Assembly: GCF_000018405.1 (NCBI RefSeq)
Contig: NC_009943.1
Location: forward strand, 2,297,001 to 2,361,000
Direction of reading: 5' to 3'
Length of the DNA stretch: 64,000 nt
DNA from: Desulfosudis oleivorans Hxd3
GTDB taxonomy: Bacteria > Desulfobacterota > Desulfobacteria > Desulfobacterales > Desulfosudaceae
Each line of letters starts with the position of its first letter. The stretch's first letter is position 1. The position numbers and the translations under genes were made by a program. Positions 9,101 through 57,613 of the stretch are shown here, in pieces. Below the pieces are notes generated by a model. It did not search any database, had not been told where the DNA came from, and was given only the letters and a program-made list of their open reading frames with translations.

Positions 9101-9325
9101 CTCTTTACCCCCAATCATTTTGTGGTTTACCAATGCCGCGTCATCACTATGCTTTCAGAAACACATGGTATGTCAATCGATGAGGCCGGGTCAAGACGGT
9201 GTAATCGTCCTTAAATTACGGCTCGGGATGCATTTTCCCGCGGCGGATCGTTTTGTGAAATCAAGTTTCAAGGGTCTTTGCTGAAAAGAATGCTTCCGGT
9301 GGAACATAACCAGGCCATAAAACGC

Positions 9326-9364
9326 TTGACAATATGTACATTATTATGCACACTAATGTACATA
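9326..9364 (+). promoter_or_regulatory. Palindromic operator/promoter of the phd-vapC pair
   Basis: Inverted repeat TATGTACATTA (9333-9343) / TAATGTACATA (9354-9364), perfect 11-bp arms with a 10-bp spacer, immediately after a TTGACA -35-like hexamer (9326-9331). The position ~17 bp before the antitoxin ATG fits autoregulation by the antitoxin/toxin complex. A -10 at ideal spacing is not clear. Confidence 0.7.
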
Positions 9365-9381
9365 AATCAAAGGGGTGACAG

Positions 9382-9618
9382 ATGAAAACAGTAACATTCA
9401 CTGAATTTCGTAAACATGCGTCTATGCTTTTTTCTGCAGTTGAAGACGGAGAAACTATAACCGTTTTGCGCCATGGGAAACCTGTTGCTGAAATATCTCC
9501 CCCCTCTCAACCTGACGGACTACCTTCATGGAAAAAACCCGGTTTGAGACTCTCCATAAAAGGAACAGAATTGTCGTCAGCTATTTTAGAGGAGCGTGAA
9601 CGTGAAAACGTTCTTTGA
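9382..9618 (+). CDS. Phd/YefM-type antitoxin
   Basis: 78 residues: MKTVTFTEFRKHASMLFSAV, then EDGETITVLRHGKPVAEISP, the classic Phd/YefM DNA-binding fold with the conserved V-x-H/G-K-P-V-A turn. The remaining ~35 residues form the toxin-neutralising tail. The ATG follows AGGGGTGACAG. It overlaps the toxin start by several codons, and the palindrome at 9333-9364 is its likely operator. Lower GC than the surroundings suggests acquisition. Pairing of a Phd-type antitoxin with a PIN toxin is common. Confidence 0.85.
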   Translation: MKTVTFTEFRKHASMLFSAVEDGETITVLRHGKPVAEISPPSQPDGLPSWKKPGLRLSIKGTELSSAILEERERENVL

Positions 9619-10015
9619 TTCTTCAGCATTTGCGAAAAGATATATTGAGGAAAAAGGAAGTCAACTTGTTGACGACATTTGTTATAAAGCGACAGAGATA
9701 TGCCTCAGTGTTATCTGTGTCCCTGAGATAATATCCGCTCTGAATCGTCGACTTCGGGAAAAATGTCTTTCTCACCAGGATTACATTACTATTAAACAGC
9801 ACTTATCAGGTGATGTTCGGGATGCTGTAATAATTAATCTGACACCAGAAGTAATAAGAATGTCGACTGAACTTCTTGAATCCTCACCGCTTCGGGCAAT
9901 GGATGCCATTCACGTAGCGTGTGCTTTAGCTTGGAAAGCTGAGTTGTTTGTATCATCAGACAACCGACAGCTTTCGGCGGCGAAGAAGGCCGGATTGAAG
10001 ATAAAACCTGTTTAG
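9602..10015 (+). CDS. PIN-domain (VapC-type) toxin
   Basis: About 137 residues of a PIN ribonuclease: MKTFFDSSAFAKRYIEEKGS supplies the first Asp and the conserved S/T, VPEIISALNRR the Glu, RAMDAIHVACAL the third acidic residue and FVSSDNRQL the fourth, giving the quartet that binds magnesium. Two GTG codons are possible, 9596 and 9602. 9602 is preferred because GGAG at 9591-9594 then lies at a proper 7-bp distance. The gene overlaps the antitoxin by 17 bp. Known VapC toxins cleave tRNA or rRNA; the target here is unknown. All four acidic positions look intact. Confidence 0.85.
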   Translation: MKTFFDSSAFAKRYIEEKGSQLVDDICYKATEICLSVICVPEIISALNRRLREKCLSHQDYITIKQHLSGDVRDAVIINLTPEVIRMSTELLESSPLRAMDAIHVACALAWKAELFVSSDNRQLSAAKKAGLKIKPV

Positions 10016-10034
10016 AATGGCCAACAATTCACCG

Positions 10035-10060
10035 CACCAGACCGCTTACAGCGTCTGGTG
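10035..10060 (+). terminator. Hairpin after the toxin gene
   Basis: CACCAGA (10035-10041) pairs with TCTGGTG (10054-10060), with an inner CGC/GCG stem and one bulged C. It lies 20 bp after the vapC stop and has no T-tract, so termination is uncertain. Confidence 0.4.
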
Positions 10061-10143
10061 GGTGAAGGTGTTAAGCCGCGGATAAAGCCGTTTACCATAA
10101 TATTTTTCAGTCTTAAACACCGATAAACAGGAAGACCGCACCA

Positions 10144-10992
10144 TTGAACATCCTTCTTGAAAAGGCCCTGGATTTTTTGTCCTGCCCTGCCTGCTCGGCC
10201 AATGCGGAGGCATCCCTCTCTTTTGTCCGCGCCCCGGCCCCGGCCCTTCAGTGCACCGGGTGCCGGGCCAGTTATCCGGTTGTCAACGGCGTGCTCGACT
10301 TTCTGCCGGACTATCATGAGCATCGGCAGCAGGGCCTGGCCCAGTGGCTCATGGAAAACAGGGCAGTTGTTTCGGTATATGAAACGTATTTCAGGCCGGC
10401 CTTTACACGGATGGGGTCCCCCATTACCTATGAAGAGGAGATGGTATGGCTGAAAAGCGTTCAAACCGGGCGGCCGGTTAAAACCGTGCTGGACCTGGCC
10501 TGCGGCACCGGCAAATACGCAAGGATGCTGAACGATTTTTACGCGCCGGACCTTGTTTTTGCCGCAGACATCTCCCTGCCCATGCTTGAACAGGCCGTTA
10601 CTTACGCAAACGCCGCGGGCATTAAAAACATCCTTCACATTCGGGCCGACGCCGGTGCCCTGCCCTTTAGGAACAACTCGATTGACCGGGCAAACTGTTT
10701 CGGGGCGCTGCACCTGTTTCCGGACGCGCCGCGCACCATTCGGGAGCTTGGCCGAACGGTTTCTAAAGACGCGGTTTTTACCTGCCTGACCAGCAGAAAG
10801 GTTCGGCTTCTGTCCCCTGTGCAGAAAATATTTTCCCTGCTGATGACCTTTCAGTTCTTTGACGAGGACAAGCTCCAGCAGGCCTTAATCGAAGCGGGGT
10901 TCGGAAAGATGGATGGCGTGGTTCACAGGCAGATGGTGCTGATGTTTGGGGCCGTAAAAAAACAGGCCGGACAGCGGCATGGACGACCGTGA
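10144..10992 (+). CDS. SAM-dependent methyltransferase with zinc ribbon
   Basis: 282 residues with a TTG start preceded by GGAAG about 10 bp upstream. Residues 10-60 hold a Trm112-like zinc ribbon (LSCPACS ... LQCTGCRASYPVVNGVLDFL). Residues ~115-230 hold a class I methyltransferase core with motif I VLDLACGTGKYARML, motif II FAADIS, IRADAGALPF and FGALHLFPD. This domain pair resembles RlmA-type and UbiE-like enzymes, but the substrate cannot be named. It stands alone between the toxin pair and a small membrane protein. Confidence 0.8.
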   Translation: MNILLEKALDFLSCPACSANAEASLSFVRAPAPALQCTGCRASYPVVNGVLDFLPDYHEHRQQGLAQWLMENRAVVSVYETYFRPAFTRMGSPITYEEEMVWLKSVQTGRPVKTVLDLACGTGKYARMLNDFYAPDLVFAADISLPMLEQAVTYANAAGIKNILHIRADAGALPFRNNSIDRANCFGALHLFPDAPRTIRELGRTVSKDAVFTCLTSRKVRLLSPVQKIFSLLMTFQFFDEDKLQQALIEAGFGKMDGVVHRQMVLMFGAVKKQAGQRHGRP

Positions 10993-11146
10993 ATCAACCC
11001 GGTGCCGTGCAGTCAATTGTTGTCTCTGCATGGAAGAATTGATATAGTCGGTCGCAGCCTGTATATTTCATGAATTGATGAGGAAGCAAAGAAAGTGCTT
11101 GAGGTGGGGCTTTTGTGCGTCACCCGGAGAAAAACAAGGAGGCGGT

Positions 11147-11452
11147 ATGATAATGCTCGGCAGGAAATGGATCACACTGGTGGTTGTTCTGGCCATGATC
11201 ATGGTGCCCCTCGGTGCCAGTAGTGCTGAATTGATGGAAACCGAGGACCTCCAGATCAATGCGGGCAGCATGGTCGTCGACGCCCTGGTGGCCCGGCCCG
11301 TGGGCATGGTAATGACCGTGGCCGGCCTGGGCATGTTTATCGTTTCCTCCCCTTTTTCCGCGCTGGGGGGCAATTTCTGCCAGGCATGGAACACCCTCGT
11401 GATCTATCCGGGCAAGTTCACCTTTGCGCGGCCATTGGGGGATTTTGAGTAA
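11147..11452 (+). CDS. Small exported/membrane hypothetical protein
   Basis: 101 residues from the ATG at 11147, chosen because AAGGAGG lies 5-6 bp upstream; the frame is open further (11075) but that region is not protein-like. A signal peptide (KWITLVVVLAMIMVPLGASSA) is followed by a second hydrophobic stretch, PVGMVMTVAGLGMFIVSSPF. The end is GNFCQAWNTLVIYPGKFTFA, then RPLGDFE. I recognise the pattern as a conserved small envelope protein of sulfate reducers and relatives, but know of no assigned function. Confidence 0.65.
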   Translation: MIMLGRKWITLVVVLAMIMVPLGASSAELMETEDLQINAGSMVVDALVARPVGMVMTVAGLGMFIVSSPFSALGGNFCQAWNTLVIYPGKFTFARPLGDFE

Positions 11453-11490
11453 AACGGTGTCCCCTGCCCTGCGGCACACCGGCTTTTTTC

Positions 11491-45547: not shown

Positions 45548-46321
45548 TTAAGCGTTGGTCCTTTTCAATTCGCCGGACATGTCTCCTTTTGCAGACACTT
45601 TTAAGACGACAAACGAAATATTAAATTTCCAGGTACCTGAAGCCAAACCGTCCGAGGCAAAGACCCCTGATATTGCAAAATCAACGCGGGGGATAGAAAA
45701 GGAGAAGTTGCCTCCATCAAACCAGCCGGTTCCCGGCAGCTTCCCCATGATTGGTGCCTGAAAAACCATTTTCATAAAACCGGTGGGGGGGTCCAGGGTT
45801 CCTGTACCGGCGATTCGCTCAATAACCGGAAGGTTCTCGAGGACAAGTTTTACGCTTTCCTCATCCAGATCAAACCGCCACGTGCTTCGAAATTTAAACC
45901 GATGTTTAATATTAAAAATCGCCCCCTCGATAGTTCCTGCCAACACACCGGTATAGGTACCAATATATACACCGGCGATACGCTTCAAGCCATTTTCGTC
46001 GGCGACACTTCCATCCTGTTCCGGGACTTTTTCCTCTTCTGTAATTTCGGATCCATGAAGAGAATGGGTGGTATCTCCGATAACGACAGCATCAAACACC
46101 TGGTCCCACAGACCGACCAGGATCGATTCCTTGTTGGGAAAGTATTGATAAAGTGTACCGATGGAAACCCCGGCCCGTTCGGCTATCTTGTCGGTTGTCA
46201 CGGCGCTGTAGTTATCTATTACAAACAGTTGTAACGCGGCCTCGTAAATAGCATCCACCGTAACTTTTGCTCTTTCCTGCCTCGGTTTTTTGCGGGGTCT
46301 GCGGTGGTTGTTTTCCGACAT
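45548..46321 (-). CDS. TetR-type regulator with beta-rich C-domain (paralogue 1)
   Basis: 257 residues. A basic N-terminus (RRPRKKPRQERAKVT) leads into a TetR helix-turn-helix, VTTDKIAERAGVSIGTLYQY then FPNKESILVGLWDQV (~40-75). Beyond ~110 the sequence is not the usual helical ligand domain: IAGVYIGTYTGVLAGTIEGA, WRFDLDEESVKLVLENLPVI, GTGWFDGGNFSFSIPRVDFA and GLASGTWKFNISFVVLKVSA alternate short strands with Gly-rich turns. The protein is about half identical to 50844-51605 across its whole length. It is divergent from the HEAT/SH3 lipoprotein gene, its likely target. Confidence 0.8.
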   Translation of the reverse strand: MSENNHRRPRKKPRQERAKVTVDAIYEAALQLFVIDNYSAVTTDKIAERAGVSIGTLYQYFPNKESILVGLWDQVFDAVVIGDTTHSLHGSEITEEEKVPEQDGSVADENGLKRIAGVYIGTYTGVLAGTIEGAIFNIKHRFKFRSTWRFDLDEESVKLVLENLPVIERIAGTGTLDPPTGFMKMVFQAPIMGKLPGTGWFDGGNFSFSIPRVDFAISGVFASDGLASGTWKFNISFVVLKVSAKGDMSGELKRTNA

Positions 46322-46549
46322 GGATTTTCCCCGAATTTTACTTGATCCGAATGTTTATCATCCCCTGGCAGCAAATTTCATAATATTGAAAGCTGATTGT
46401 CAACTTAAATCACGATCGAAAAATTTATAAAACATCCGGGGCAAAACCTGAGGGTTAACGGCCCAAAATGTTTCCCAAAAGTGCTTTCAGTAAATAATAT
46501 TTTGATTTTATTTGATTTAATTAACGACTCCCAACGACCGGTAATTTGA

Positions 46550-46586
46550 GAATGCGAGGTGACAACGGTTGAACCTGTCAGATATA
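46550..46586. promoter_or_regulatory. Conserved dyad block, copy 1
   Basis: GAATGCGAGGTGACAACGGT TGAACCTGTCAGATATA recurs as 51857-51893. It holds a dyad AGGT-ga-CAAC-G-GTTG-a-ACCT. The whole 46322-46734 gap is AT-rich and homologous to 51606-52074; the block is the best-preserved part and a candidate operator for the divergent TetR protein. No gene is seen in the gap. Confidence 0.6.
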
Positions 46587-46734
46587 GTTTCTGTAATTTT
46601 ACACAAAAGGATGCCGCAAAAAGGCCGGCATGGCGCCGTATTCCTGAAGCAAAGAACGGAGCCATAAAATAGTTCTAGGGTACCCCTAAAAACCTGGACC
46701 GCTGAAAGGTGCCCTTCAAACAAAAGGAGAGAGT

Positions 46735-48303
46735 ATGCCCTGGAAAACTCACACCATTGTCAGAGGCACAATCGTTATATTCGGTATTGTCCTGGCGGCA
46801 TGGATGCTGGCTGCGTGTGCCCCGTGGTACCGGTCTTATGACATCACGTCGGGCGAGGATTTGACAAAAATTTCCGCCGTTCCCGAGTTACGAAAAGCTC
46901 TGAAGGACAGTAAGCCGGACGTTCGAATGGCGGCGGCCACGGCCCTTGGACGGATCGGGCCCGACGCAAGGGATGCGCTCTCCGATCTTGTGGATGTACT
47001 GGGCGACAACAGGCACGAGGTGCGCGAGGCATCGGCAAATGCGATTTCGTCTATTATCGGAACCGCACCGGTATCGGAAGCGGATAAGAACCTGATGGTG
47101 CAGGTGCAGGCCAACCGCCTTGCGTCCGAGGACTGGGCGGCTCGTGTGGACGCCGCCGACCAGTTGGCCCAAATGGGCCCGGCTGGCGCGGATGCGGTTC
47201 CCGTGTTGATTTCCACCCTGTCGGACGAAACAGAATGGAGTTATTACTGGACCCGGCAGTACGATAAAGTAAGACGCGCCGCCGCAAACGCCCTTGGGGA
47301 GATGCGTTCCGCGGCAACGGCCGCCAGTCCCGCGCTGATCAAGGCCTCAAAATATCAAGATCCCGGGGTTCGCCTGGAGGCGGTCAGGGCCCTGGGTAAA
47401 ATCGGCACTCCATCCGACAGCACTGTAGTTAAGGCATTAACGGCCGCGTTAAAGGACGATGACGCGGGTGTGCGTCGCGAGGCGGCCGACGCACTGGGGG
47501 CCTTTGAGGTGTATGCAAACAATACGGTTCCCAACCTGGTAGACGCTCTTTCCGATCAGGATGTTGATGCGCGAAGAAAGGCGGCTCAGGTACTGGGCCG
47601 CTTCGGTCCCAAGACAGACGCGGCGGCGGAAGCCCTTGTGGCCGCGCTGAAGGATACCGACAAAGCGGTCAGGCAGACGGCGGCCCGCGCAATTGCCGAA
47701 TTTGGCATCGACAACAAGACGGCGGCAGCCACCCCCCTGAGACCGCCGGTTGCCGCTATGGCCCCTGAAGAGACTGCAGCAGTGGAGACTACGGCACAAC
47801 CGGAGACAAAAATCCGTTCCACTGTGGATCTGCTTAACATTCGGGCCATGCCCAGTGTAAACAGCCGACGTGTAGGTAAACTGCTGCAAAACGAAATTGC
47901 AACAGTGGTTGAGACCCTGGTGGATTGGGTCAAAATCGAGAAACCCGACGGCACCACCGGCTATGTGTTTAAAGAGTACACAGCGATGGTGCATGAGACA
48001 GGGGATGCCTCCAGGGTGCTACAACCAGAGTCACAGAAGGCGCAAGCCACTGTCAACATGCCGATGGTACCGGTTGTCACCGCACCGGTTGCCGTTGCTT
48101 CGGCTTCGACAGTTCCCAAAATACGGCCAATCGTGGATGCCCTTGAGATGCGATCAGAGCCTTTTGGGAGTGAACAGGTCGGCCAACTGCTGCGTAATGA
48201 AGCGGCGGAGGTTGTCGAGAGCCGGGCCGGATGGATCAAAATAAAAAAAGCCGACGGCACCACCGGCTATGTGTTTAAAGAATATACAGAGAGTGCCCCC
48301 TGA
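46735..48303 (+). CDS. HEAT-repeat lipoprotein with two SH3 domains
   Basis: 522 residues. Signal with lipobox MLAACAPW (Cys28), so anchored to a membrane outside the cytoplasm. About eight to nine HEAT/PBS-lyase-like repeats follow (40-330), for example KDSKPDVRMAAATALGRIGP, DDDAGVRREAADALGAF and DTDKAVRQTAARAIAEFG. Two bacterial SH3 domains (~355-415 and ~455-520) each end in DGTTGYVFKEYT and carry the LLNIRAMPS- or ALEMRSEPF-type start. HEAT arrays bind proteins; SH3b domains often bind cell-wall peptides. AAAGGAGAGAGT precedes the ATG. Divergent from TetR paralogue 1; the FG-GAP gene follows after ~147 bp. Confidence 0.85.
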   Translation: MPWKTHTIVRGTIVIFGIVLAAWMLAACAPWYRSYDITSGEDLTKISAVPELRKALKDSKPDVRMAAATALGRIGPDARDALSDLVDVLGDNRHEVREASANAISSIIGTAPVSEADKNLMVQVQANRLASEDWAARVDAADQLAQMGPAGADAVPVLISTLSDETEWSYYWTRQYDKVRRAAANALGEMRSAATAASPALIKASKYQDPGVRLEAVRALGKIGTPSDSTVVKALTAALKDDDAGVRREAADALGAFEVYANNTVPNLVDALSDQDVDARRKAAQVLGRFGPKTDAAAEALVAALKDTDKAVRQTAARAIAEFGIDNKTAAATPLRPPVAAMAPEETAAVETTAQPETKIRSTVDLLNIRAMPSVNSRRVGKLLQNEIATVVETLVDWVKIEKPDGTTGYVFKEYTAMVHETGDASRVLQPESQKAQATVNMPMVPVVTAPVAVASASTVPKIRPIVDALEMRSEPFGSEQVGQLLRNEAAEVVESRAGWIKIKKADGTTGYVFKEYTESAP

Positions 48304-48449
48304 AACATGAAGCACGGTGCATTCATAAAACTGAAACCAATATACAAAAGGGCTATCGCAAATACGGCAGATGTTCCAGCGTCCGTCACTGTGGGCTGCC
48401 GACCGAATCAACCCGTAAAATATCAGGCTAAATTATAAGGAAGGTGTAT

Positions 48450-50726
48450 ATGGCAACACATTATTTAAAGAAAATGTCTGCGCAAAAAGACGGTATTGTC
48501 TCTGAACAGGTGGTTTCGCATGGCATGCTGAAAGCGAGTGCCGTGGCGGCTTCCGTGGCCGGATGCGTGTTTCTGGCCTCTCCTGCCCACCAGGCACTGG
48601 CCGCACCCGGCCCTTTTCTCCCCCACGGAATTGAGGGCAATCCCCTGCCCATGCCCGTGAGCGCTTCCTGGTGGAGCCGGCCGGCCCTTGCTGACATCGA
48701 CGCTGATGGTGACGTCGATATTTTCGTGGGCGACAAGACGGGCACCATTAACTATTTTGAAAATATCGGCACTGCCTCGGCTCCGGCCTTTGAAATGCGC
48801 ACCGGCGCGGACAGCCCCTTCTGGTATTACGACACCGGGTGTGGGACCTATTATCCATACATTGTGGATGCACTTGCGGCACCCACTTTTGCGGACCTTA
48901 ATGGCGACGGGGACCTGGACGCCGGCGTGGGCAACAGTTACGGATCGATTGACTACTTTGAAAACACCGGCACTGTCTCGACCCCGTGCTTTGTAATGCG
49001 CACCGGTGCGAAAAGCCCCTTCTGGTATTATAACAAAGGGGATAGAACCTATTATCCAACAAAATATACGGATACGGGTTCGACACCGGCTTTTGCAGAC
49101 CTTGATGGCGACGGCGACTTCGACCTCTTTGTGGGCTCCTTCATAAGCTTCCTCAGCACGCCGATGCGGTATTTTGAAAACACCGGCACAGTCACCGCAG
49201 CCAGGTTCGCGGAGACGGATGGCCCGCTTGACGCCCTGACCGATGCGTTATCGAGCCCTGCAGCCGCCTTTGCCGACATTGACGGTGATGGAGACCTGGA
49301 CGCTTTCATGGGCATCAAATACCAGTCCTACGAGACATTCGTTGGCGTACTCGGTACGGTTCTTTCCCCAATCAGCGGCATCACCTGTTTTGAAAACACC
49401 GGTGACGCCTCGGCCCCACACTTCACAGACAACAGTACGGGCAATCCTTTTACCGGGCTTGAAACCGACCCGTGGAGTGCTCCGGCCTTTGCCGACATTG
49501 ACAGTGATGGCGATCTGGACGCCTTTGTGGGCGGTATGTCCGGTGACCTGAAATTCTTTGAAAATACTGGAACTACAAGCGCCCCGGTCATGACAGAACG
49601 CCGGACCGTCAACAGCCCGGCATGGGGTGTGGATGTGGGTAAATACAGCCATCCCGTTTTTGTGGATATTGACGGGGACGGCGACCTGGACGCCTTTGTG
49701 GGTGAATTTGGTACTATAAAAGGTGCTTTTAAGTATGATGGTGACTCTTTCATGGGCCTGGGCCTGCGGCCTGCGGTCTATGGCAACGTTAACTTTTTTG
49801 AAAACACCGGAACCGCCCAGAGCCCTCATTTTGTGCAGCGCGCGGACGCGGACTACGGCCTGGGCGAAGGCGTGATGAGCCCACTTGTCGTTTTCACCAC
49901 CCCGGCTTTTGTGGATATTGATGGCGACGGTGACATGGACGCCTTTATGGGGGCCAGGTACGGCTTTGACCTGGACGTGGAGCTAGCAGAAGAAACGCCG
50001 GATGTTGTCTCGGTATCCGATATATCGGACCCGTCCGTGTTTATTCAGTATTTTCAAAACGTCGGTACGCCAACGGCTCCCTATTTTGCCCCTATGCCCT
50101 CTCAACAAAACCCGGCAGCCACTATCGGGGGAACGGCGTTCGATGATTACAAACCCGCCTTTATGGATGCTGACGGCGACGGCGATTTTGATCTGTTTAT
50201 CGGAGATAGAGACGGCGATATCTATTACTTTGAGAACACCGGGACCGCCAATGCGGCCGAGTTTAACGCCGCGCTTCCGGAGTACGAGGCCAACCCCTTT
50301 GGCCTGACCGCGGTAGATCACAACGCAACCCCCACCTTTGCCGACACTGATGGGGATGGCGACATGGACGCCGTTGTGGGCGAGTATCACAGCGCCATTC
50401 ACTACTTTGAGAACACCGCTGACGCCACCGCCACCGAACCGATCTTTGTGGAACGCACCGGCACGGACAACCCTTTTGGCATCTATGGCGACGAGGATGG
50501 CGCTTATCTTTTTACCTCGCCGGCCTTTGCCGACATCGACAGCGACGGAGACCAGGATCTGTTTGTGGGTGAATGGGGCGGCAGAATCCTCTTCCTGGAA
50601 AACCGGGAAATTGTTCCGGTGGTGCCGCCGGTGGAGGAGGATGATGATGACGATGATGGTAAAGGCAATAACACCTTTGTGATTCCATCCGCTGAGGGCT
50701 GTTTTATCAACAGTATTGGCGGCTGA
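48450..50726 (+). CDS. FG-GAP/VCBS repeat surface protein
   Basis: 758 residues from ATG 48450 (MATHYLKKMSA), which has AAGGAAGG 6 bp upstream; a GTG at 48444 is an alternative. A signal segment is visible near residues 25-55 (ASAVAASVAGCVFLASPAHQ, ALA). Ten repeats follow, each built as P-A-F-A-D-I-D-G-D-G-D-L-D-A-F-V-G, then YFENTGT, with calcium-binding DxDxDG loops as in integrin alpha-type propellers. The end is acidic (VEEDDDDDDGKG) and then a short SAEGCFINSIGG tail, perhaps a sorting or anchoring signal. Probably exported and calcium dependent. An intrinsic terminator follows. Confidence 0.88.
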   Translation: MATHYLKKMSAQKDGIVSEQVVSHGMLKASAVAASVAGCVFLASPAHQALAAPGPFLPHGIEGNPLPMPVSASWWSRPALADIDADGDVDIFVGDKTGTINYFENIGTASAPAFEMRTGADSPFWYYDTGCGTYYPYIVDALAAPTFADLNGDGDLDAGVGNSYGSIDYFENTGTVSTPCFVMRTGAKSPFWYYNKGDRTYYPTKYTDTGSTPAFADLDGDGDFDLFVGSFISFLSTPMRYFENTGTVTAARFAETDGPLDALTDALSSPAAAFADIDGDGDLDAFMGIKYQSYETFVGVLGTVLSPISGITCFENTGDASAPHFTDNSTGNPFTGLETDPWSAPAFADIDSDGDLDAFVGGMSGDLKFFENTGTTSAPVMTERRTVNSPAWGVDVGKYSHPVFVDIDGDGDLDAFVGEFGTIKGAFKYDGDSFMGLGLRPAVYGNVNFFENTGTAQSPHFVQRADADYGLGEGVMSPLVVFTTPAFVDIDGDGDMDAFMGARYGFDLDVELAEETPDVVSVSDISDPSVFIQYFQNVGTPTAPYFAPMPSQQNPAATIGGTAFDDYKPAFMDADGDGDFDLFIGDRDGDIYYFENTGTANAAEFNAALPEYEANPFGLTAVDHNATPTFADTDGDGDMDAVVGEYHSAIHYFENTADATATEPIFVERTGTDNPFGIYGDEDGAYLFTSPAFADIDSDGDQDLFVGEWGGRILFLENREIVPVVPPVEEDDDDDDGKGNNTFVIPSAEGCFINSIGG

Positions 50727-50780
50727 CGGTCACCGGCACACGATTCAGATAAAGATAAACAGACAAAGACAAATCCTTGA

Positions 50781-50819
50781 AAAAAGGGAGGGACACATTG
50801 CCCCTCCCTTTTTCTTTTT
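50781..50819. terminator. Intrinsic terminator, two-way
   Basis: AAAAAGGGAGGG (50781-50792) pairs with CCCTCCCTTTTT (50802-50813), followed by a T-rich run to 50819. With A-tract before and T-tract after, it can serve both the FG-GAP gene and the convergent TetR paralogue 2. Confidence 0.9.
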
Positions 50820-50843
50820 ACGCATCGGTGAAGTATGGTCGGG

Positions 50844-51605
50844 TTAAGCGGGGAACAGATCACCTTTCCCGGACAGTCTGAAAACGATAAACGAAATATT
50901 AAACTCCCAGTTGCCTGAAGCAGAGCCGTTCGCAGTCAAGGTCCCTGACATTGAATAATCAACGCGGGGAATATGAAAAGCGTAATTACCGCCGTCAAAC
51001 CTGCCTGTTCCTCGCAGCTTCCCCGTGACCGGGGTTTTTACGACCATTTCCATAAAACCGGTATGGGGGTCAACGGTTCCCGCACCGGTGATTCGATCAA
51101 CAACCGGAAGTCCCTTGATGACAATCTTCACCGATGTCTCACCGAGATCAAGCTTCCATGTGCCCTGGACCTTAAACCGGTGTTGAAGGTAAAAAATCGA
51201 GACCTCGCTGATTCCTGACAGCGCGCCGGTGTACACACCGGCGATATGCTTCATGACATACCCGGCGGCACCCTGATTCCCGCCGGCGACACGTTCATGT
51301 TGTTCCGGCGCTTTTACCTCGCCTGCAACTCCGGACTTGTGAAGAGAATAGGTGGCCCCCCCGATAATAACAGCATTGAACACCTGCTCCCACATACCGA
51401 CCAGAATCGACTCCTTGTTGGGAAAATACTGGTAAAGCGTGCCGATGGAAACCCCGGCCCGTTCGGCTATCTGGTCGGTTGTCACGGTGTCATAGTGATT
51501 CTTTAAAAGCAGTTGCAAAGCGGCCTCGTAAATAGCATCCACAGTCGCTTTGGCTCTTTCCTGTATCGGTTTTTTACGGGGCTTGAGGTCGTTTTTTTCC
51601 GGCAT
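50844..51605 (-). CDS. TetR-type regulator with beta-rich C-domain (paralogue 2)
   Basis: 253 residues, paralogous to 45548-46321 from end to end. HTH: VTTDQIAERAGVSIGTLYQY then FPNKESILVGMWEQVFNAVI. The C-terminal region (~115-253) has IAGVYTGALSGISEVSIFYL, TWKLDLGETSVKIVIKGLPV, RGTGRFDGGNYAFHIPRVDY and NGSASGNWEFNISFIVFRLS, strongly beta in character. This combination is not a typical TetR. It is divergent from the 1369-residue lipoprotein gene, mirroring paralogue 1 and its lipoprotein. The conserved dyad at 51857 lies between. Confidence 0.8.
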   Translation of the reverse strand: MPEKNDLKPRKKPIQERAKATVDAIYEAALQLLLKNHYDTVTTDQIAERAGVSIGTLYQYFPNKESILVGMWEQVFNAVIIGGATYSLHKSGVAGEVKAPEQHERVAGGNQGAAGYVMKHIAGVYTGALSGISEVSIFYLQHRFKVQGTWKLDLGETSVKIVIKGLPVVDRITGAGTVDPHTGFMEMVVKTPVTGKLRGTGRFDGGNYAFHIPRVDYSMSGTLTANGSASGNWEFNISFIVFRLSGKGDLFPA

Positions 51606-51856
51606 AGGCGTCCTTTGGGGCTCCCTTGATCCGAATGTTCATAATCCCTTAATAGCAAATTTTACAATGCGGGATCAATCTATTTATGTTGTTAGAAAAT
51701 CTACTGACGACTCAAATCCCCGTCGAAATTTTCATGAACCACTCAGCCAAAACCTGAGGTCTAATCGACCGAAATGCTTTTTTCTGGACGCTTGTTTAAA
51801 TTAATTATTTGATTTTATTTTACTTATTTAAAAAAACATGGGGCCCGGTATTTTAA

Positions 51857-51893
51857 GAATGCGAGGTGACAGCAGTTAAACCTGTCGTATATA
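51857..51893. promoter_or_regulatory. Conserved dyad block, copy 2
   Basis: GAATGCGAGGTGACAGCAGT TAAACCTGTCGTATATA, aligned with 46550-46586. Homology continues weakly on both sides through the 51606-52074 gap, including an ATGGYGCYGTATT segment near 51935 that matches 46630. No gene is seen in the gap. Confidence 0.6.
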
Positions 51894-52074
51894 TTCCTAA
51901 ATTAAGTGGCGCTGGGGAAAGATGAATATGGTGCTGTATTGGCAGAGCATCACTCGAACCTGATTCCTCCCTTCTCTGGTTTTGACTTGCATCTCCCCCG
52001 GCGGCCACTTTTATTTCAATAACACAGGGTGCCGATATGACGGGTTGTGACAATAAAAACCAAGGAGCTGCGTA

Positions 52075-55000
52075 ATGCTTAAAAAACTTTTGTTTTCGAT
52101 CGTAGTGTGCGGATGCCTGTTTTTTCTGGCCTGCGGCCTGGGGTCCGATGATGGGACGAATGGCGGCAAAACCGGAGCGGCCGGTTTTCAAGACAGTGGA
52201 TCGTTTGATGCCAACAGTTTGGGGCCGGATTTCAAGCTGCTGGAGATCTTCGATGGCCGCGGCAGCCTGCAAGACATCTGGGACAGCATTGACGGCACGA
52301 CCTTTAACGATCATTTTGAAGATACCGTGGATGCTTATCCAAACGCTTTTACCCGTTCAAGTACGGTATTCTCCGATGTACTGGACGATCCCGGGCAGCC
52401 TGTGGCCAGGCTTCTGGGCACGGACCTCTATAAAAATATCGACATACTGATGGACCCTTCCAAAGGCTTTCGCACCGGTCCCGCCGGTATCAACGCCGTT
52501 TATGACGACACGTATGCCGAAGGCCCGACCGATTATCTGGACGGGTTTTACAGCATGCTGGACGCCCTGTGGGAGGGGGATTACCGGCCCGGCGACCAGG
52601 AAATAAGAGACATGGGGGTCAAATACGTGGCCCGAACCCTGGACAGCAACACCCCGGAACAGATTCAAAATGACGTTCAGGACGTTATCGACATTCTTAC
52701 TGACGAGCGGTTTGATGAAAATTTTACGCTGACCGCCGAGGTCCTGGGAAAAGCACTGCTGCAGGCCGACTATCCCATCTGGGCTGATGACGACGGCAAT
52801 ACAGTGCCCCGGGAGAATATCAACCCGGCGGTTCATACCAATACCGGCATCGGCAATGCCGTAAAAGGCGTCAATGACCTGGCGGCCTGGGAGAACCGCA
52901 TGCTGATTGATCCCACGGCCCGGGACTATTTTTATACCGCCATTCGGGAAGCCGGAAAAATCTTTGATCCGGATCCCAACTCCACCAACAACCTGAAACT
53001 CCAGGCCCTGTTGACCAATCTCGAAGACTGTTTCACCGTGGGCGGGGCCGTGTACGAAAGCAACCCGATTTACAAAAGCGCGGATACAGACCCCACCTAT
53101 TCTGATACGGAGCTGGGAGAGACGATACGGGACCTCATGCCCCACACAGCCCAGTTGTTGATGCGCTCCGACCGGCCCACCTCCCTGATCAAGACGGATA
53201 CCAATGATACGCCGGTATATGTGCTGCGGGAGACAATCAATCTGCTTAAAAATATCGACTATGACCCTGATGATCCCGGCCTGGAGACATCGCTGTATAA
53301 TATGCTGCGGTATGACCAATGGGGCCGGGACCGCACAGATCCTTCCTCCGGGGCGTATGACGCCTCTCTGCTGGACAGCCTGATATTTATCACCAATGTG
53401 GCGGGAAATTTCGGGTGGCTTGATAGCAACTTCTGGGAGAGCGGCGTGTTGGCCGGAGAGAGCAACTTTTCCTGGGATCCCTCCTTTTCGCATGGTCACG
53501 GTGAATTTTGCGGTACATTGACCCTTAATGATTCTCTTATCAGCATGCGCACTGGAGTTTGGGGAAGTGTTAGTGCTTACGATTCCACCATGCATGATGG
53601 CGATGAAGAGCGTTTGTTCAGAAGCAATAAGGCGTTTAATAAAGAAGACAGGGACAATTACCAGTTCAGCTTCGGCCCCGACAGCCCTGTATTGCACAAC
53701 ATGCCCGGTGTATGTGCCGGTATTATGGGCACGCCCGACGGCGGCAACCGGGACGGGGTTCCTCCGGGCAAAAACAATTACGTCCCGTTTAATCCCACCG
53801 GCCTTGGCGAGGATCAGTTGGGTGCCTGGTCTGTGGCGTGGCCCGCGCAGGCCTGCTTTGGCGGCGAAGGGCCCTACTATTACGAAGACCCGAACGCGGA
53901 AATCGTCTATGTGGATGGCAAAAACTACTTCAAATATTTGCGGCCCGACGGCCGGGTCTATGCCCTGGTCAACAAGGACAACCCTGAGTGGGAATATATC
54001 TATCCCACGGAACAAGGAGACGGGGAAGACCCGGAAACCGAAGTAACCGGTTATAACGGCAAGCGCCAGCGCTTCAACCGGTTTCAGTCCACCTTCCATT
54101 CCGATTATATGATGGCTCGGTTTGAAACCTACGCGGGGTACGACCCAGTACCGGATACGGAAGAGTTTGTTACTGTTGAACATGATGTCGACGGCAATCT
54201 TGCCATCGTGGAGCTGAGTCCTAACGACATTGTCACCGAAGACGATGTTGCCGGCCGGCTCACCTTTAACGAGCTTATTCCCGAAGACACCCCCCTTCAC
54301 GAACGCGCCTGCCAAAGTCAGGAAGAGGCCCTTTATCGGAATTATCAATGGGTCTATACGGAAAAGAAGATGGTCATTATTTTGATGGAGCGTCTGTTTA
54401 TAGCTGAGGGCGCCCTTGGTGAAGGCGCTCTTTTTATAGTGATGGAAGCGAACGGCTTTTCCGGGCTGTCCAATTTAAGGCTGTTTGAGGACAATCATGT
54501 GTGGGCCAAAAAAGGCGCCTCCGGTACTTCCGACATCCCCGGCGACTACCGGTGCGAGCTGGTGTTAGAAGGTGGCGAAAATTATACACCCGTAGCGGGT
54601 GTTGACGACATCTATGAGCGAGTTCTCACCAGAGGTGGCCATTGTACTCCCTCAGTCGTGGGTCGCAGCCTGCCATCTGTCTATCGCCTGGCTTTCCCCT
54701 TAAGCCCCCAGATGGACCGGGGCAACGGGGTTCTGGATTACGAGCTGGGCTCCCGGGAGTTTACCGTGGGAGATGAAATATGGCAAAACCGCAATGCCGT
54801 CATGCCCCCTTTTGTGGCCCTGCTGGCCGCGCTTTTGAACAATACCCCGTCCTATAACGACGGCTATGACCGGGATTCTTTGAATTGCGGTATTAAGGGC
54901 TTTATCAACGGGGTGGCGCCGGCCCTGCAAAAGCCGCTTGTCTATTACCAGAGGGACGGCGACTACCCGGAATTCTCGTGGCCAGTTCCTCCTGACTTTG

Positions 55001-56184
55001 CTTGGACGGGTGTGCCCTTTAACACCTGGAAAGTACGGGTTCAGGGAACCGATCATTACGGTTACTGGATAGGCGACAATTACCTACAGCCGGCCAAGGG
55101 CTTTCCCGGGGACCCGGTCTGGAACGGAAGCGAAGCGGAAAATCTCTATTACCAGCCGGCAACCTGCAAGACCCTGCTCAACATTCTGACCGACAGCGAT
55201 ATCACCGCACCGGTAGCCGAGGGCAAGCGCATGGACGGCCTGCTACCGCTGGTGACCGAGACCAAGACCCTTTCCGCCCTGGTCAAGGCTCTGATGAGCG
55301 ATGCCAATGATTCGACACGCATCGACAGCGCGCTGGAACAGATCGTCGGGGCCGTCAAATACACGCAAGGCACCATGACCGCCATTGACGCCGACCCGGC
55401 GGCCAACAAGAATATCGTCTACCCGAACTGGATGTTTGCCACCGGCTATGGCAGCGGGGATTTTGGCGAATATATCGGGTTCTACAATGTGCGTGATGAA
55501 GACATTATTTTAGACAAGATACTGGACACGGTCATCGGTCACGACAGCCTGCCGGATAAGGAGGGATACGGTCTGGCCGATTATGTGGATACCCAGGAGA
55601 CCACGGACAACTGGAAAGACTTCAACCACTACCTGGACATCATGGAAGACTTTCTGTACCCGGAAAGCCCCTACAGCCTGCTGGAGTCTTTTATCGGGTC
55701 GACCGACGCGATCTTTGCAAGAGAAACCCCCTACACCGACGAACAGATCGCCGGTCTTATTTACGGCATGGGCAAGCTGTTCACCTACTACGACACCGAT
55801 ACGGGTCGCTGGGTGGTCCAGGGAGAACCCGGCTTTGACGGTCTTTATAAAACGTTGAATGCGCGGGTTCCCGCCATCCATGAGCTGATAAAGGATGATG
55901 ACGGCACAAACTACACCGCCATGCTCATCATCGGCGAGGATATGCTGAAAGACAACGGCCAGGCGGATTATCTACTGGACGCCATGAGCACGAACGTTAA
56001 TGCGCGGGGAATCCTGGAGGACCTTCACACCTTCCTGGCCGACGATATTGTGAGAGATTCTGAGCCGCTCTGGGAGACCCTTTCCCAACTCCTGGCTGAT
56101 TTGGCGGTAGCAGTGGATCAATCCAGTGGCGGAGCCGCTCTTGACGACGTTTATGACAGCTACGGGTTCCAGATCAATGACTGA
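52075..56184 (+). CDS. Very large lipoprotein, unknown function
   Basis: 1369 residues. Signal and lipobox MLKKLLFSIVVCGCLFFLAC put the lipid on Cys20, followed by GLGSDDGTNGG, a flexible linker. The rest is a soluble, acidic, Tyr/Asp-rich protein without any domain I can name and without obvious internal repeats. Segments such as LLRSDRPTSLIKTDTN-type and LYNMLRYDQWGRDRTDPSSG recur in character with helical regions. ACCAAGGAGCTGCGTA precedes the ATG. FadL-like and PilZ genes follow on the same strand, and TetR paralogue 2 is divergent. I infer an outer-membrane lipoprotein working with the FadL-type channel. Confidence 0.75.
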   Translation: MLKKLLFSIVVCGCLFFLACGLGSDDGTNGGKTGAAGFQDSGSFDANSLGPDFKLLEIFDGRGSLQDIWDSIDGTTFNDHFEDTVDAYPNAFTRSSTVFSDVLDDPGQPVARLLGTDLYKNIDILMDPSKGFRTGPAGINAVYDDTYAEGPTDYLDGFYSMLDALWEGDYRPGDQEIRDMGVKYVARTLDSNTPEQIQNDVQDVIDILTDERFDENFTLTAEVLGKALLQADYPIWADDDGNTVPRENINPAVHTNTGIGNAVKGVNDLAAWENRMLIDPTARDYFYTAIREAGKIFDPDPNSTNNLKLQALLTNLEDCFTVGGAVYESNPIYKSADTDPTYSDTELGETIRDLMPHTAQLLMRSDRPTSLIKTDTNDTPVYVLRETINLLKNIDYDPDDPGLETSLYNMLRYDQWGRDRTDPSSGAYDASLLDSLIFITNVAGNFGWLDSNFWESGVLAGESNFSWDPSFSHGHGEFCGTLTLNDSLISMRTGVWGSVSAYDSTMHDGDEERLFRSNKAFNKEDRDNYQFSFGPDSPVLHNMPGVCAGIMGTPDGGNRDGVPPGKNNYVPFNPTGLGEDQLGAWSVAWPAQACFGGEGPYYYEDPNAEIVYVDGKNYFKYLRPDGRVYALVNKDNPEWEYIYPTEQGDGEDPETEVTGYNGKRQRFNRFQSTFHSDYMMARFETYAGYDPVPDTEEFVTVEHDVDGNLAIVELSPNDIVTEDDVAGRLTFNELIPEDTPLHERACQSQEEALYRNYQWVYTEKKMVIILMERLFIAEGALGEGALFIVMEANGFSGLSNLRLFEDNHVWAKKGASGTSDIPGDYRCELVLEGGENYTPVAGVDDIYERVLTRGGHCTPSVVGRSLPSVYRLAFPLSPQMDRGNGVLDYELGSREFTVGDEIWQNRNAVMPPFVALLAALLNNTPSYNDGYDRDSLNCGIKGFINGVAPALQKPLVYYQRDGDYPEFSWPVPPDFAWTGVPFNTWKVRVQGTDHYGYWIGDNYLQPAKGFPGDPVWNGSEAENLYYQPATCKTLLNILTDSDITAPVAEGKRMDGLLPLVTETKTLSALVKALMSDANDSTRIDSALEQIVGAVKYTQGTMTAIDADPAANKNIVYPNWMFATGYGSGDFGEYIGFYNVRDEDIILDKILDTVIGHDSLPDKEGYGLADYVDTQETTDNWKDFNHYLDIMEDFLYPESPYSLLESFIGSTDAIFARETPYTDEQIAGLIYGMGKLFTYYDTDTGRWVVQGEPGFDGLYKTLNARVPAIHELIKDDDGTNYTAMLIIGEDMLKDNGQADYLLDAMSTNVNARGILEDLHTFLADDIVRDSEPLWETLSQLLADLAVAVDQSSGGAALDDVYDSYGFQIND

Positions 56185-56194
56185 TCACAACGCG

Positions 56195-56211
56195 CCCCGC
56201 CTATGGCGGGG
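56195..56211 (+). terminator. Small hairpin between lipoprotein and FadL genes
   Basis: CCCCGCC (56195-56201) and GGCGGGG (56205-56211) with a TAT loop. There is no T-tract; it is likely an mRNA processing or attenuation hairpin within the operon. Confidence 0.5.
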
Positions 56212-56269
56212 ATGATATAGCTCGGATATTTCATCATCAATGACACGAACATAACATGAGAGAGGCATT

Positions 56270-57613
56270 ATGAAAAAGACACTATGCGTTGCGGTATGTT
56301 TGGTTTTGGGAGTGATGTTGACGACGCCGGCCGGCGCCACCCACTTTGGCGACACCTTTGGTTTTTCGCCGGAGGGAATGGCACTGGGGAACGCCATGAC
56401 GGCAAAAGTCGATGACTGGTCGGCCGTGTACTACAATATTGCCGGGCTCGGCCGTTCCCAACACCTGGTTAACGGCAAAAGCCAGCTTTTTCTGGGTTAC
56501 ATAAACAATGCCCCGGATCTGGATATCGAGATTGTCAGGCGTGAAGCCGCCACCGGCGATCGCCTGGCCACCAACGGGGACAGGGACCTGGACACCGGGA
56601 CCATTGTTATTGGCGGCGTGCTGGATATCGGTACCCTTGTACATCTTCCCGAAATGGTATCCTCGACCCGCCTGGGGCTTGCCATCGGCCTTAACGATGA
56701 CCAGAGCGTGGTTAAAATAAACGACCTCGACCCCCGCACGCATAATTTCATGCGCTATGGCCGGGAATGCCAGCGCATGCTGATCACCACCGGCATGGGA
56801 TTCGGATTTTTACACGACACCTTCGGGGTCGGCCTGGGCGTTACCTCCTTTTTTACCGGAGAGGGGACCGCTCTCCTGGAACGTGTCGAGCTGCAGACGG
56901 AATCCCAAAGCCCGCCCGGGCAGGCCAAAATGGACCTCAAAATGGAACAGGCCCTGGTGATGGGCGCCTATTTCAGCCCCGGGAAACTGTGGCGGTCCCT
57001 GGATACATTAGAGCTGGGCGTCGCCTATCGGGCCGAATCTCAGCTGGATATCACGCCTTTCAGGGCGATTGCGTCCACCGACCTGGGGGGCATTCCCCTG
57101 AATATCAAGATGGCCCTGGTAGATTATTATCAGCCGGAAATGTATTCCGTTGGCCTGGCCTACTCACTGAACCGGTTGACCCTCTCCGCTGATCTGGAGT
57201 TCCAGCAGTGGTCCGGGTTCGAATTTTCCACCCCGATGCAAGAGAACTATGGCGGCGAACTAAAAGAATTTGACGATATCTTTGTTCCCAAACTGGGCCT
57301 GGCCTATGACTTCAACCCATCTTTAGACCTGCTTTTCGGGTACTATTATGAGCCCTCCTTTGTGCCCGATGAAGCGGTCAGCGGCCGCATGAATTTTCTG
57401 GATAACGATAAACATGTCGTATCACTCGGGTGTGTCTATCAACTGCCGAAACTGTCAATGGTGAAGGGCAACAGCGAATTCTCGATCGGCTATCAGTATC
57501 AGCACCTGATGGACCGGGACGTTATCAAAACAGCACCGACCCCTGAAAACCCGCACTATTCCTATGGGGGGAGCTGTCACTCGTTGATGCTGGGCGTCTC
57601 CATCAATATCTAG
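56270..57613 (+). CDS. FadL/OmpP1-type outer-membrane transport protein
   Basis: 447 residues. Signal peptide MKKTLCVAVCLVLGVMLTTP, AGA, then HFGDTFGFSPEGMALGNAMT, AKVDDWSAVYYNIAGLG, the FadL-family N-terminus (the usual NPAGL reads NIAGL here). The rest is a predicted beta-barrel with alternating strands (LGLAIGLNDDQ, GVGLGVTSFFTGEG, LGVAYRAESQLDI, PKLGLAYDFNPSLDLLFGYY) and a last strand ending LMLGVSINI. FadL proteins move long-chain fatty acids, alkanes or aromatics across the outer membrane. GAGAGGCATT precedes the ATG. It follows the large lipoprotein by 85 bp. Confidence 0.82.
   Translation: MKKTLCVAVCLVLGVMLTTPAGATHFGDTFGFSPEGMALGNAMTAKVDDWSAVYYNIAGLGRSQHLVNGKSQLFLGYINNAPDLDIEIVRREAATGDRLATNGDRDLDTGTIVIGGVLDIGTLVHLPEMVSSTRLGLAIGLNDDQSVVKINDLDPRTHNFMRYGRECQRMLITTGMGFGFLHDTFGVGLGVTSFFTGEGTALLERVELQTESQSPPGQAKMDLKMEQALVMGAYFSPGKLWRSLDTLELGVAYRAESQLDITPFRAIASTDLGGIPLNIKMALVDYYQPEMYSVGLAYSLNRLTLSADLEFQQWSGFEFSTPMQENYGGELKEFDDIFVPKLGLAYDFNPSLDLLFGYYYEPSFVPDEAVSGRMNFLDNDKHVVSLGCVYQLPKLSMVKGNSEFSIGYQYQHLMDRDVIKTAPTPENPHYSYGGSCHSLMLGVSINI

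Follow-up and report, generated by a model that had tools for sequence, protein, structure and literature searches.

Two paralogous TetR-type chimeras with a beta-patterned C-terminal domain in Desulfosudis oleivorans Hxd3

Introduction

In TetR regulators, a single helical domain normally holds the protein together and also acts as its switch. PMC4482099 describes a helical C-terminal ligand and dimerisation domain, made up of alpha4–alpha9, in most of the 52 M. tuberculosis TetR members. For TetR regulators of divergent genes, PMC3511530 gives a 200-bp rule and names exceptions. Here we describe two regulators, T1 and T2, encoded in a 64-kb stretch (64,000 nucleotides; ‘the window') of the D. 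oleivorans Hxd3 genome, in which the helical C-terminal domain was not recovered: Pfam finds no TetR_C family in them, identity to an ordinary TetR stops at residue 74, and the region behind has a beta-type alternation.

Results

The first-pass annotation, made by reading the window alone, had proposed that two genes are alike over their whole length and that each joins a TetR helix-turn-helix to a Gly-rich region of alternating strand pattern. Both observations were confirmed. T1 and T2, both on the minus strand (Table 1), align end to end with 153 of 254 columns identical (60%; E 1e-113), and TetR_N (PF00440) scored 56.1 and 53.1 bits, respectively, against a cut-off of 24. This is the sole Pfam family above cut-off in either protein, in agreement with the proposal of an unusual TetR architecture without a helical C-domain. 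Other Pfam helix-turn-helix models matched the heads below their cut-offs, as did DUF2905 at T1 residues 185–211 (E 0.26), and all NCBIfam matches were below cut-offs, with none beyond residue 91. The C-domain of ~135 residues has no family in Pfam or NCBIfam. A fusion of two genes by frameshift or assembly error has a negligible probability: we found nothing in its favour, and two paralogues, identical at this level across the join and with the same architecture, lie in a single-contig genome.

Table 1. Positions in the window of the regulator genes, their domains, the neighbouring genes and the upstream DNA features.
Feature	Position	Strand	Basis
T1, 257-aa chimeric regulator, TetR helix-turn-helix and beta-patterned domain	45548..46321	-	ORF list, Pfam, pairwise alignment
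T2, 253-aa chimeric regulator, T1 paralogue	50844..51605	-	ORF list, Pfam, pairwise alignment
T1 TetR_N helix-turn-helix, residues 25–68	46118..46249	-	Pfam
T2 TetR_N helix-turn-helix, residues 25–68	51402..51533	-	Pfam
T1 beta-patterned C-domain	45572..45982	-	Profile A1, E 7.6e-51; T1 itself a profile row
T2 beta-patterned C-domain	50853..51254	-	Profile A1, E 1.3e-52; T2 itself a profile row
Lipoprotein-like protein (by eye), HEAT and SH3 repeats; T1 divergent neighbour, inferred target	46735..48303	+	ORF list, Pfam
FG-GAP repeat protein behind HEAT/SH3 gene; inferred target	48444..50726	+	ORF list, Pfam
1369-aa lipoprotein-like protein (by eye), no Pfam family; T2 divergent neighbour, inferred target	52075..56184	+	
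FadL/TodX-type outer-membrane transporter behind 1369-aa gene; inferred target	56270..57613	+	PF03349, E 2.6e-11
AATGCGAGGTGACA, 14-bp candidate operator upstream of T1	46551..46564	+	Common to T2 and unfused G002 TetR
AATGCGAGGTGACA, 14-bp candidate operator upstream of T2	51858..51871	+	Exact match
23-bp block AGGTGACANCNGTTNAACCTGTC upstream of T1	46557..46579	+	Kept in both upstream regions
23-bp block AGGTGACANCNGTTNAACCTGTC upstream of T2	51864..51886	+	Kept in both upstream regions
Promoter-like site GTGACA-18-TATAGT toward 46735 operon	46559..46588	+	Consensus match only, 10/12
Promoter-like site GTGACA-18-TATATT toward 52075 operon	51866..51895	+	Consensus match only, 10/12

We analysed the strand pattern of the C-domain and the selection acting on it. 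The hydrophobic moment at 170 degrees, a measure of strand-like alternation, gave z values of 2.99 for T1 and 3.32 for T2, with only 3 of 1000 shuffles reaching the observed value in each case, and the heads had no such alternation in the same test. The string RGTGRFDGGNYAFHIPRVDY, which had been quoted as an example of the pattern, is present in T2. The dN/dS ratio was 0.42 for the C-domain (bootstrap 0.26–0.67), indicating purifying selection, and 1.03 for the linker between head and C-domain (0.38–4.19). Given the value for the C-domain, the fusion does not appear to be debris; chance or artefact as an explanation was discarded on the strength of the two paralogues and dN/dS.

It had also been proposed that the C-domain is lipocalin-like (lipocalins and calycins are up-and-down barrels of 8 or 10 strands), and a structure prediction of residues 110–257 had been suggested. 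Two AlphaFold models built from the T1 and T2 sequences alone were of low confidence (pLDDT 42 and 39); the first was all-beta and the second had no helix after residue 79. Foldseek with the first of them gave no match better than E 0.18, which carries no meaning; with these values, a lipocalin fold from structure prediction was dropped. A profile of ten domain copies (see below) had six matches among PDB sequences, three of them to small beta-barrels at weak E values (3.5e-4, 3.6e-3 and 6.2e-3), and these are the only structural lead. PDB 6czj, 6ohh and 6czg, which we take to be de novo designed beta-barrels, match profile positions 27–109, 14–96 and 14–109 of 138, respectively. It is possible, though somewhat unlikely, that the C-domain does belong to the lipocalin/calycin or FABP families and is merely too diverged for Pfam, as the barrel matches, the strand alternation and the all-beta model might suggest. 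However, no such family was among the six PDB matches or among the Pfam and NCBIfam matches, the backward-sequence control profile matched a beta-barrel as well (avidin at E 0.014), and a profile of T1 and T2 only matched no barrel among PDB sequences, superoxide reductase being its best match (E 0.34). An HMM search of the C-domain, which had likewise been suggested, thus bore out the absence of a known Pfam family and returned weak beta-barrel matches in place of a lipocalin.

Relatives of the C-domain were found in large proteins. T2 alone as a query matched an open frame of 1324 aa in the D. oleivorans genome (a 1321-aa protein; G000:C1, L021:6979-10944), with the best two stretches 37–40% identical at E ~2e-16, and a like frame in a genome of the same family, G002 (G002:C6, L029:141-4205), in four stretches of 33–40% identity with a best E of 2.6e-18; the best-copy E values of this single-sequence search were 2.6e-18 and 1.7e-16. 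Both proteins contain four copies of the beta domain, separated by other segments, as well as TSP3 repeats together with a choice-of-anchor U domain. They are apparently exported, as indicated by a signal peptide recognised by eye, and have a surface-type C-terminus. In the alignment of ten copies the exported ones are 30–36% identical to T2, and 16 columns are invariant in 10 of 10 copies, a count that is not independent as T1 and T2 are among the ten rows. Because T2 alone finds the copies in both genomes, the C-domain of T1 and T2 is, at the level of sequence, homologous to the beta domain of the four-copy protein.

The profile search found the domain in these two genomes only, that is, in 2 of 3 genomes of the family sample, 2 of 389 of the order sample and 2 of 389 of the class sample, and in 1 of 395 (the own genome) of the phylum sample; some genomes belong to more than one sample, and scoring in the three large samples covered no more than 9 or 10 first-look candidates per genome. 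Peptide-pattern scans with two alignments confirmed 0 of 200 and 0 of 121 stretches of genome contigs, and 0 of 27 stretches of viral contigs; they require near-exact patterns and possibly leave out the source or very near genomes, and distant fusions may exist. The T2 C-domain had no match in plasmids and phages, nor had one exported copy in plasmids. Within the samples searched, the beta domain was found in two genera only.

The head has relatives of its own. The best one outside the own genome is a TetR of G002 (L080; G002:C18:43377-44015), whose head is 65% identical over T2 residues 4–74 and 68% over T1 residues 9–74, with no meaningful identity beyond residue 74; the segment AERAGVSIGTLYQYFPNK is identical in all three proteins. 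In a 48-row head tree, based on few columns, T1 and T2 together are sister to the G002 TetR (97/83). The latter matches TetR_C_15 (PF17918) at E 1.3e-4, below the curated cut-off, and three further relatives, L101–L103, match above it (E 1.4e-8, 8e-10 and 9.1e-13). By these matches, the G002 protein is an ordinary TetR after residue 74, with a helical C-domain. Since head and tail have separate relatives, an unfused TetR on the one side and the four-copy protein on the other, T1 and T2 are, by sequence comparison, chimeras.

We compared the regions upstream of the three TetR genes. The element AATGCGAGGTGACA has three exact matches in five genomes, upstream of T1 (by 229 bp), of T2 (by 252 bp) and of the G002 TetR, and none elsewhere; there are three one-mismatch matches, one of them directly before the relative in genome G457, and the element read backwards has two matches in all. 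These counts apply to an element chosen after having been seen. In genome G440 the best match has 5 of 14 mismatches. In three unfused relatives the element lies within ~20 bp of likely ATGs. It has no clear palindrome of the kind bound by a TetR dimer, and its GAGGTGA also resembles a ribosome-binding site. The T1 and T2 regions each hold four promoter-like sites (0.8 and 1.2 expected, respectively); in both, AATGCGAGGTGACA overlaps the best-scored site, toward the divergent operon, and itself contains the -35 hexamer. With 3 or fewer mismatches allowed, the 23-bp block has no third match in the window (chance expectation 0.03), the pattern being derived from its own two sites, and was not found in an 18-kb stretch around the G002 TetR, which has only its first part in common. 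The 18-bp pattern ACARCNGTTNAACCTGTC, at up to 3 mismatches, occurred in 64 places versus 47 in the control, so only its two exact sites are meaningful; a match with 3 mismatches near the exported-protein gene was set aside as background.

At 413 and 469 bp, the intergenic distances to the divergent neighbours are longer than the 200-bp rule of PMC3511530 allows. T1 and T2 might thus bind DNA constitutively or regulate only themselves, with a beta domain that is a structural remnant and senses nothing: by that paper, regulators at long distances are more likely to control their own gene than the neighbour, and the linker shows no constraint. Nevertheless, the upper bound of dN/dS for the C-domain (0.67) indicates a domain kept by selection, and AATGCGAGGTGACA lies over the neighbour's promoter-like site, far from T1 and T2 themselves, which makes this explanation quite improbable.

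No AATGCGAGGTGACA at up to 1 mismatch was found near the gene for the exported protein in D. oleivorans, which places that gene outside the predicted regulon. This bears on the idea that the beta domain is a protein–protein or oligomerisation module rather than a small-molecule sensor, through which T1 and T2 dimerise or bind the four-copy protein before export, thereby reading the state of the envelope. Four copies with intervening segments in exported proteins are as expected of assembly modules, and T1 and T2, lacking a helical dimer domain, need another dimer interface; but given the missing element, and the divergence of the regulator domains from the exported copies, we consider this idea unlikely.

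The 1369-aa lipoprotein was followed into six stretches of four other genomes. FadL adjoins its homologue in four of the six; of the two remaining contigs, one breaks off directly after the lipoprotein. No TetR head was detected near these homologues at E≤10, in a search that recovered 7 of 7 positive-control loci. The beta domain of an apparently exported protein, together with lipoprotein-like and FadL-type neighbours, supports a link of T1 and T2 to the cell envelope. Of the earlier suggestion that a lipocalin-like domain senses a lipid-like or envelope-derived ligand, the link to the envelope is retained, while the lipocalin-like fold and the lipid ligand are conjectural.

Discussion

We think it probable, on balance, that T1 and T2 are duplicated one-component repressors that arose by domain replacement, keeping the ancestral operator and acquiring a new, probably hydrophobic, signal. 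The ancestor would have belonged to the TetR group whose head reads RKxPxQxRS...AGVSIGTLYQYFPNK. It would have retained the DNA-binding head (about residues 1–74) and lost a helical ligand and dimerisation domain of the TetR_C_15 type, in exchange for a linker of ~40 residues followed by a single copy of the beta domain. The head would still recognise AATGCGAGGTGACA, with binding predicted to depend on AATGCGAG. Since the recognition helices, which we presume to have located correctly from general TetR anatomy, are identical in the two proteins, T1 and T2 are predicted to cross-bind. As AATGCGAGGTGACA overlaps the -35 box of the divergent operon, the default action would be repression, by T1 of the HEAT/SH3 lipoprotein and FG-GAP operon and by T2 of the 1369-aa lipoprotein and FadL operon. 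The proteins would dimerise via the beta domain, possibly a barrel, and a ligand or protein partner bound there may alter oligomerisation and release the DNA. A ligand would most likely be hydrophobic, a long-chain alkane or fatty acid, of the same class as met outside by the exported protein. More tentatively, and with clearly less confidence, the same module may read inside the cell the ligand captured outside, possibly a long-chain hydrocarbon, and so drive the lipoprotein–FadL uptake operon, the helical core having been exchanged and the operator kept.

If true, a natural chimera working without the helical core would mean that an unrelated beta module is able to drive a TetR head, and would reveal its dimer interface. 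A sensor swap with the operator kept is what biosensor builders attempt by hand, and this one can be retraced, as we have identified the unfused relative, a donor-type domain and the DNA element that was conserved. It also offers a starting point for work on a domain so far uncharacterised. Among the open-licence papers found by literature search, no title or beginning of an abstract mentions a TetR head joined to a beta-barrel.

The closest known systems include TetR regulators with a TetR_C_15-type C-domain (PF00440 + PF17918), such as that of G002, which shares with T1 and T2 a head of 65–68% identity, the upstream AATGCGAGGTGACA and a divergent neighbour; it has a helical ligand and dimerisation domain, whereas T1 and T2 have an unrelated beta domain instead. 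The TSP3/choice-of-anchor U protein shares the homologous beta domain of ~135 residues, but it has four such domains and is apparently exported, while T1 and T2 have one and no signal peptide by eye. The barrels 6czj, 6ohh and 6czg resemble the C-domain in strand and glycine pattern over much of its length, yet would have no common descent with it if designed, and are unmatched by T1 and T2 alone. With lipocalins and FABPs (calycins), the likeness of the C-domain is confined to a Gly-rich, alternating-strand look.

Architecture of T1 and T2

Two similar open reading frames, each with an unusual TetR architecture, had been claimed in the first-pass annotation. The two frames (T1 and T2) are real, though on the minus strand, and are 60% identical over their full length. 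In both, the Pfam TetR_N helix-turn-helix occupies residues 25–68; beyond it no Pfam or NCBIfam model scored above cut-off, and no NCBIfam match extends past residue 91. After residue ~115 a strand-like alternation is seen (z 2.99 in T1 and 3.32 in T2, equalled in 3 of 1000 shuffles each), and the same test on the heads showed none.

Positions of the two fusion regulators in the window
Feature	Coordinates	Strand	Length
T1	46321-45548	minus	257 aa
T2	51605-50844	minus	253 aa

Between T1 and T2, dN/dS was 0.27 for the head (bootstrap 0.13–0.53), 0.42 for the C-domain (0.26–0.67) and 1.03 for the short linker (0.38–4.19). The values for head and C-domain indicate that both parts are maintained by selection, and the identity of 58 of 81 four-fold sites argues that the duplication is not very old.

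Relatives of the beta domain

Searched with T2, its own genome (one contig, 3,944,167 bases) yielded 30 matches at E≤1. Besides T2 and T1 themselves, these comprise four stretches of a single 1324-aa open frame (2.413–2.415 Mb) and 24 matches restricted to the head (query residues 8–94). The 1324-aa frame (1321 aa from the first ATG) encodes a protein with a start that looks by eye like a signal peptide, four beta-domain copies, TSP3 repeats, a choice-of-anchor U domain and GGGGGCFIETM in its end. A counterpart, also with four copies, is present in G002, which belongs to the same family but a different genus. In both proteins (locus L021, 6979–10944, and its G002 counterpart L029, 141–4205), which are apparently exported, the copies alternate with another repeat, and TSP3, choice-of-anchor U and a terminal glycine run with CFI follow.

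Sixteen columns are invariant across all ten copies (T1, T2 and four from each exported protein). In the tree of these copies T1 and T2 form a separate branch (100/98), copies 1, 3 and 4 each pair with the same-numbered copy of the other exported protein (98/97, 98/97 and 100/100), and the fork that joins both copies 2 to the copy-1 pair is unresolved. This copy-by-copy pairing implies that most of the four-copy layout is older than the split of the two genera; the tree picks out no individual exported copy as donor for T1 and T2.

Pfam scans of the ten copies singly returned nothing but one stray match, in one copy (E 0.12). A beta-domain profile matched two of three genomes from the family, 2/389 from the order, 2/389 from the class and 1/395 from the phylum (overlapping samples), never other than the window's own genome and G002. 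Pattern scans of 84,980 species (one genome each), viral contigs, plasmids and phages, which need near-exact peptide patterns and perhaps left out the window's own or very near genomes, gave no confirmed beta domain. Within the genomes searched, the fusion of TetR head and beta domain was seen only in the window's genome.

AlphaFold, given two input sequences, returned an all-beta C-domain in poor models (pLDDT 42 when the C-domain was modelled by itself and 39 at full length); the whole-protein model has helices at 14–35, 43–50, 54–60 and 64–79 and none afterwards. Six PDB entries matched the ten-copy profile at E≤10, led by three small beta-barrels (E 3.5e-4, 3.6e-3 and 6.2e-3) that we take to be de novo designs; the profile's backward control found avidin at E 0.014, and a profile of T1 and T2 only had superoxide reductase as its best match (E 0.34). 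These results hint at an up-and-down barrel; the lipocalin-like domain of the first-pass annotation is a candidate reading.

Origin of the head

The head alone (92 residues) matched 14 of 56 genomes, own included, at E≤1e-8. The top match outside the own genome was an ordinary, unfused TetR of G002 (G002:C18; 62%, E 4.8e-28), with the second-best far behind (43%, E 6.6e-11). Pairwise BLAST aligned this protein to T2 residues 4–74 (65%) and T1 residues 9–74 (68%), where identity ends. Its match to the helical TetR_C_15 is weak (E 1.3e-4, under cut-off); relatives from three other genomes are over cut-off (G440, 1.4e-8; G093, 8e-10; G457, 9.1e-13). In a head tree of 48 rows (T1, T2 and 46 fetched loci), for which the program warned of few columns, T1 and T2 adjoin the G002 protein (97/83) inside a nine-row set (98/90) with the G440, G093 and G457 relatives and three others; TetR_C_15 status is known for the G002, G440, G093 and G457 members.

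The claim of an unusual architecture is supported and can be stated more precisely, as a documented domain replacement. The ~40 intermediate residues of T1 and T2 (about 75–115) matched neither the G002-type TetR nor the beta-domain proteins. In the simplest order of events, the helical domain would have been lost after about residue 74, the beta domain gained, and duplication would have followed.

Elsewhere in the own genome, a 507-aa open frame (G000:C1:1082695-1083606) is matched weakly by the TetR head at two separate places (E 0.2 and 0.37) and is perhaps of the Mce3R kind, that is, a double-TetR protein.

A shared element upstream

Over about 250 bp, interrupted by a gapped stretch, the regions upstream of T1 and T2 are similar, and their best-conserved part carries AGGTGACANCNGTTNAACCTGTC (46557–46579 and 51864–51886). 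The 14-mer AATGCGAGGTGACA, which overlaps this block, also occurs in the region read before the G002 TetR, where the remainder of the AGGTGACANCNGTTNAACCTGTC block was not found. Among five genomes (G000, the window's own, with G002, G440, G093 and G457), this element, chosen after being seen, had three exact matches, upstream of T1, T2 and the G002 TetR; one mismatch added three, of which one sits immediately before the G457 relative and two lie at other places. The reversed pattern matched twice in the same genomes. In G440 the closest match has five mismatches.

In both T regions the element includes GTGACA. This hexamer is the -35 box of the highest-scoring promoter-like site among four, and that site is directed at the divergent operon. 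Since the element is common to T1, T2 and the G002 TetR and lies over this site, we predict from sequence that an operator survived the domain swap. AATGCGAG is the informative part, because the last six bases are the -35 box and would be alike in any case. GAGGTGA of the element resembles a ribosome-binding site too, and no clear palindrome was seen in the element.

Start codons being uncertain, the likely ATG follows the element at 15 bp in G002, at 1 or 13 bp in G457 and at 19 bp in G093, where the element has 2 mismatches; in the longest ORF reading the G002 and G093 elements fall inside the ORF. The unfused relatives thus have about 20 bp or less between element and start, whereas the spacing is 229 bp for T1 and 252 bp for T2. 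This longer stretch may be a leader or hold a second operator. Further blocks CTTGATCCGAATGTT, AAAACCTGAGG and TTTGATTTTATTT are conserved in both stretches (46322–46550 and 51606–51857).

Predicted targets and mechanism

The gene divergent to T1 encodes a lipoprotein-like HEAT/SH3 protein, and the next one an FG-GAP protein. The gene divergent to T2 encodes a 1369-aa lipoprotein-like protein, its lipobox recognised by eye, and a FadL/TodX porin gene comes next. The FG-GAP protein (48444–50726, between T1 and T2) has the C-terminal AEGCFINSIGG, which closely resembles the CFI ends of the four-copy proteins; a 1276-aa protein beside the unfused G002 TetR (L099, 4435–8262) has a CFI end much like that of the FG-GAP protein.

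Relatives of the 1369-aa protein were found in five of 56 genomes searched, own included; the others are G015 (three places), G019, G049 and G050. A FadL gene adjoins the relative in four of six loci fetched from these four genomes, and a fifth contig stops just behind it; lipoprotein and FadL therefore form a pair. At 52075–57613 this is an uncharacterised conserved pair, a ~1370-aa lipoprotein-like protein without Pfam family and a FadL-type porin. One G015 copy of the lipoprotein (L056, 7416–11470) is in two ORFs (7416–9134 and 9140–11470). A TetR head was absent from all six stretches at E≤10 (positive controls, 7/7), so any control that T2 exerts on the 52075 operon would be a local feature.

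Without inducer, the head would sit on the element and so keep the -35 box blocked. Binding of a ligand or partner at the beta domain would alter the oligomer and release the promoter. As the usual TetR dimer interface is absent, the beta domain (or linker) would have to provide one, and as T1 and T2 carry identical putative recognition helices, cross-control would be expected. An excerpt of PMC5109826 gives aliphatic hydrocarbons of C12–C20 as substrates of Hxd3, and a hydrophobic ligand would be compatible with a hydrocarbon-using organism and the FadL operon.

T1 and T2 probably control their divergent operons. A passage of PMC3511530 gives a 200-bp rule for TetR regulators of divergent genes; the distances here, 413 bp for T1 and 469 bp for T2, are above it, yet the element overlaps the promoter-like site of the neighbour.
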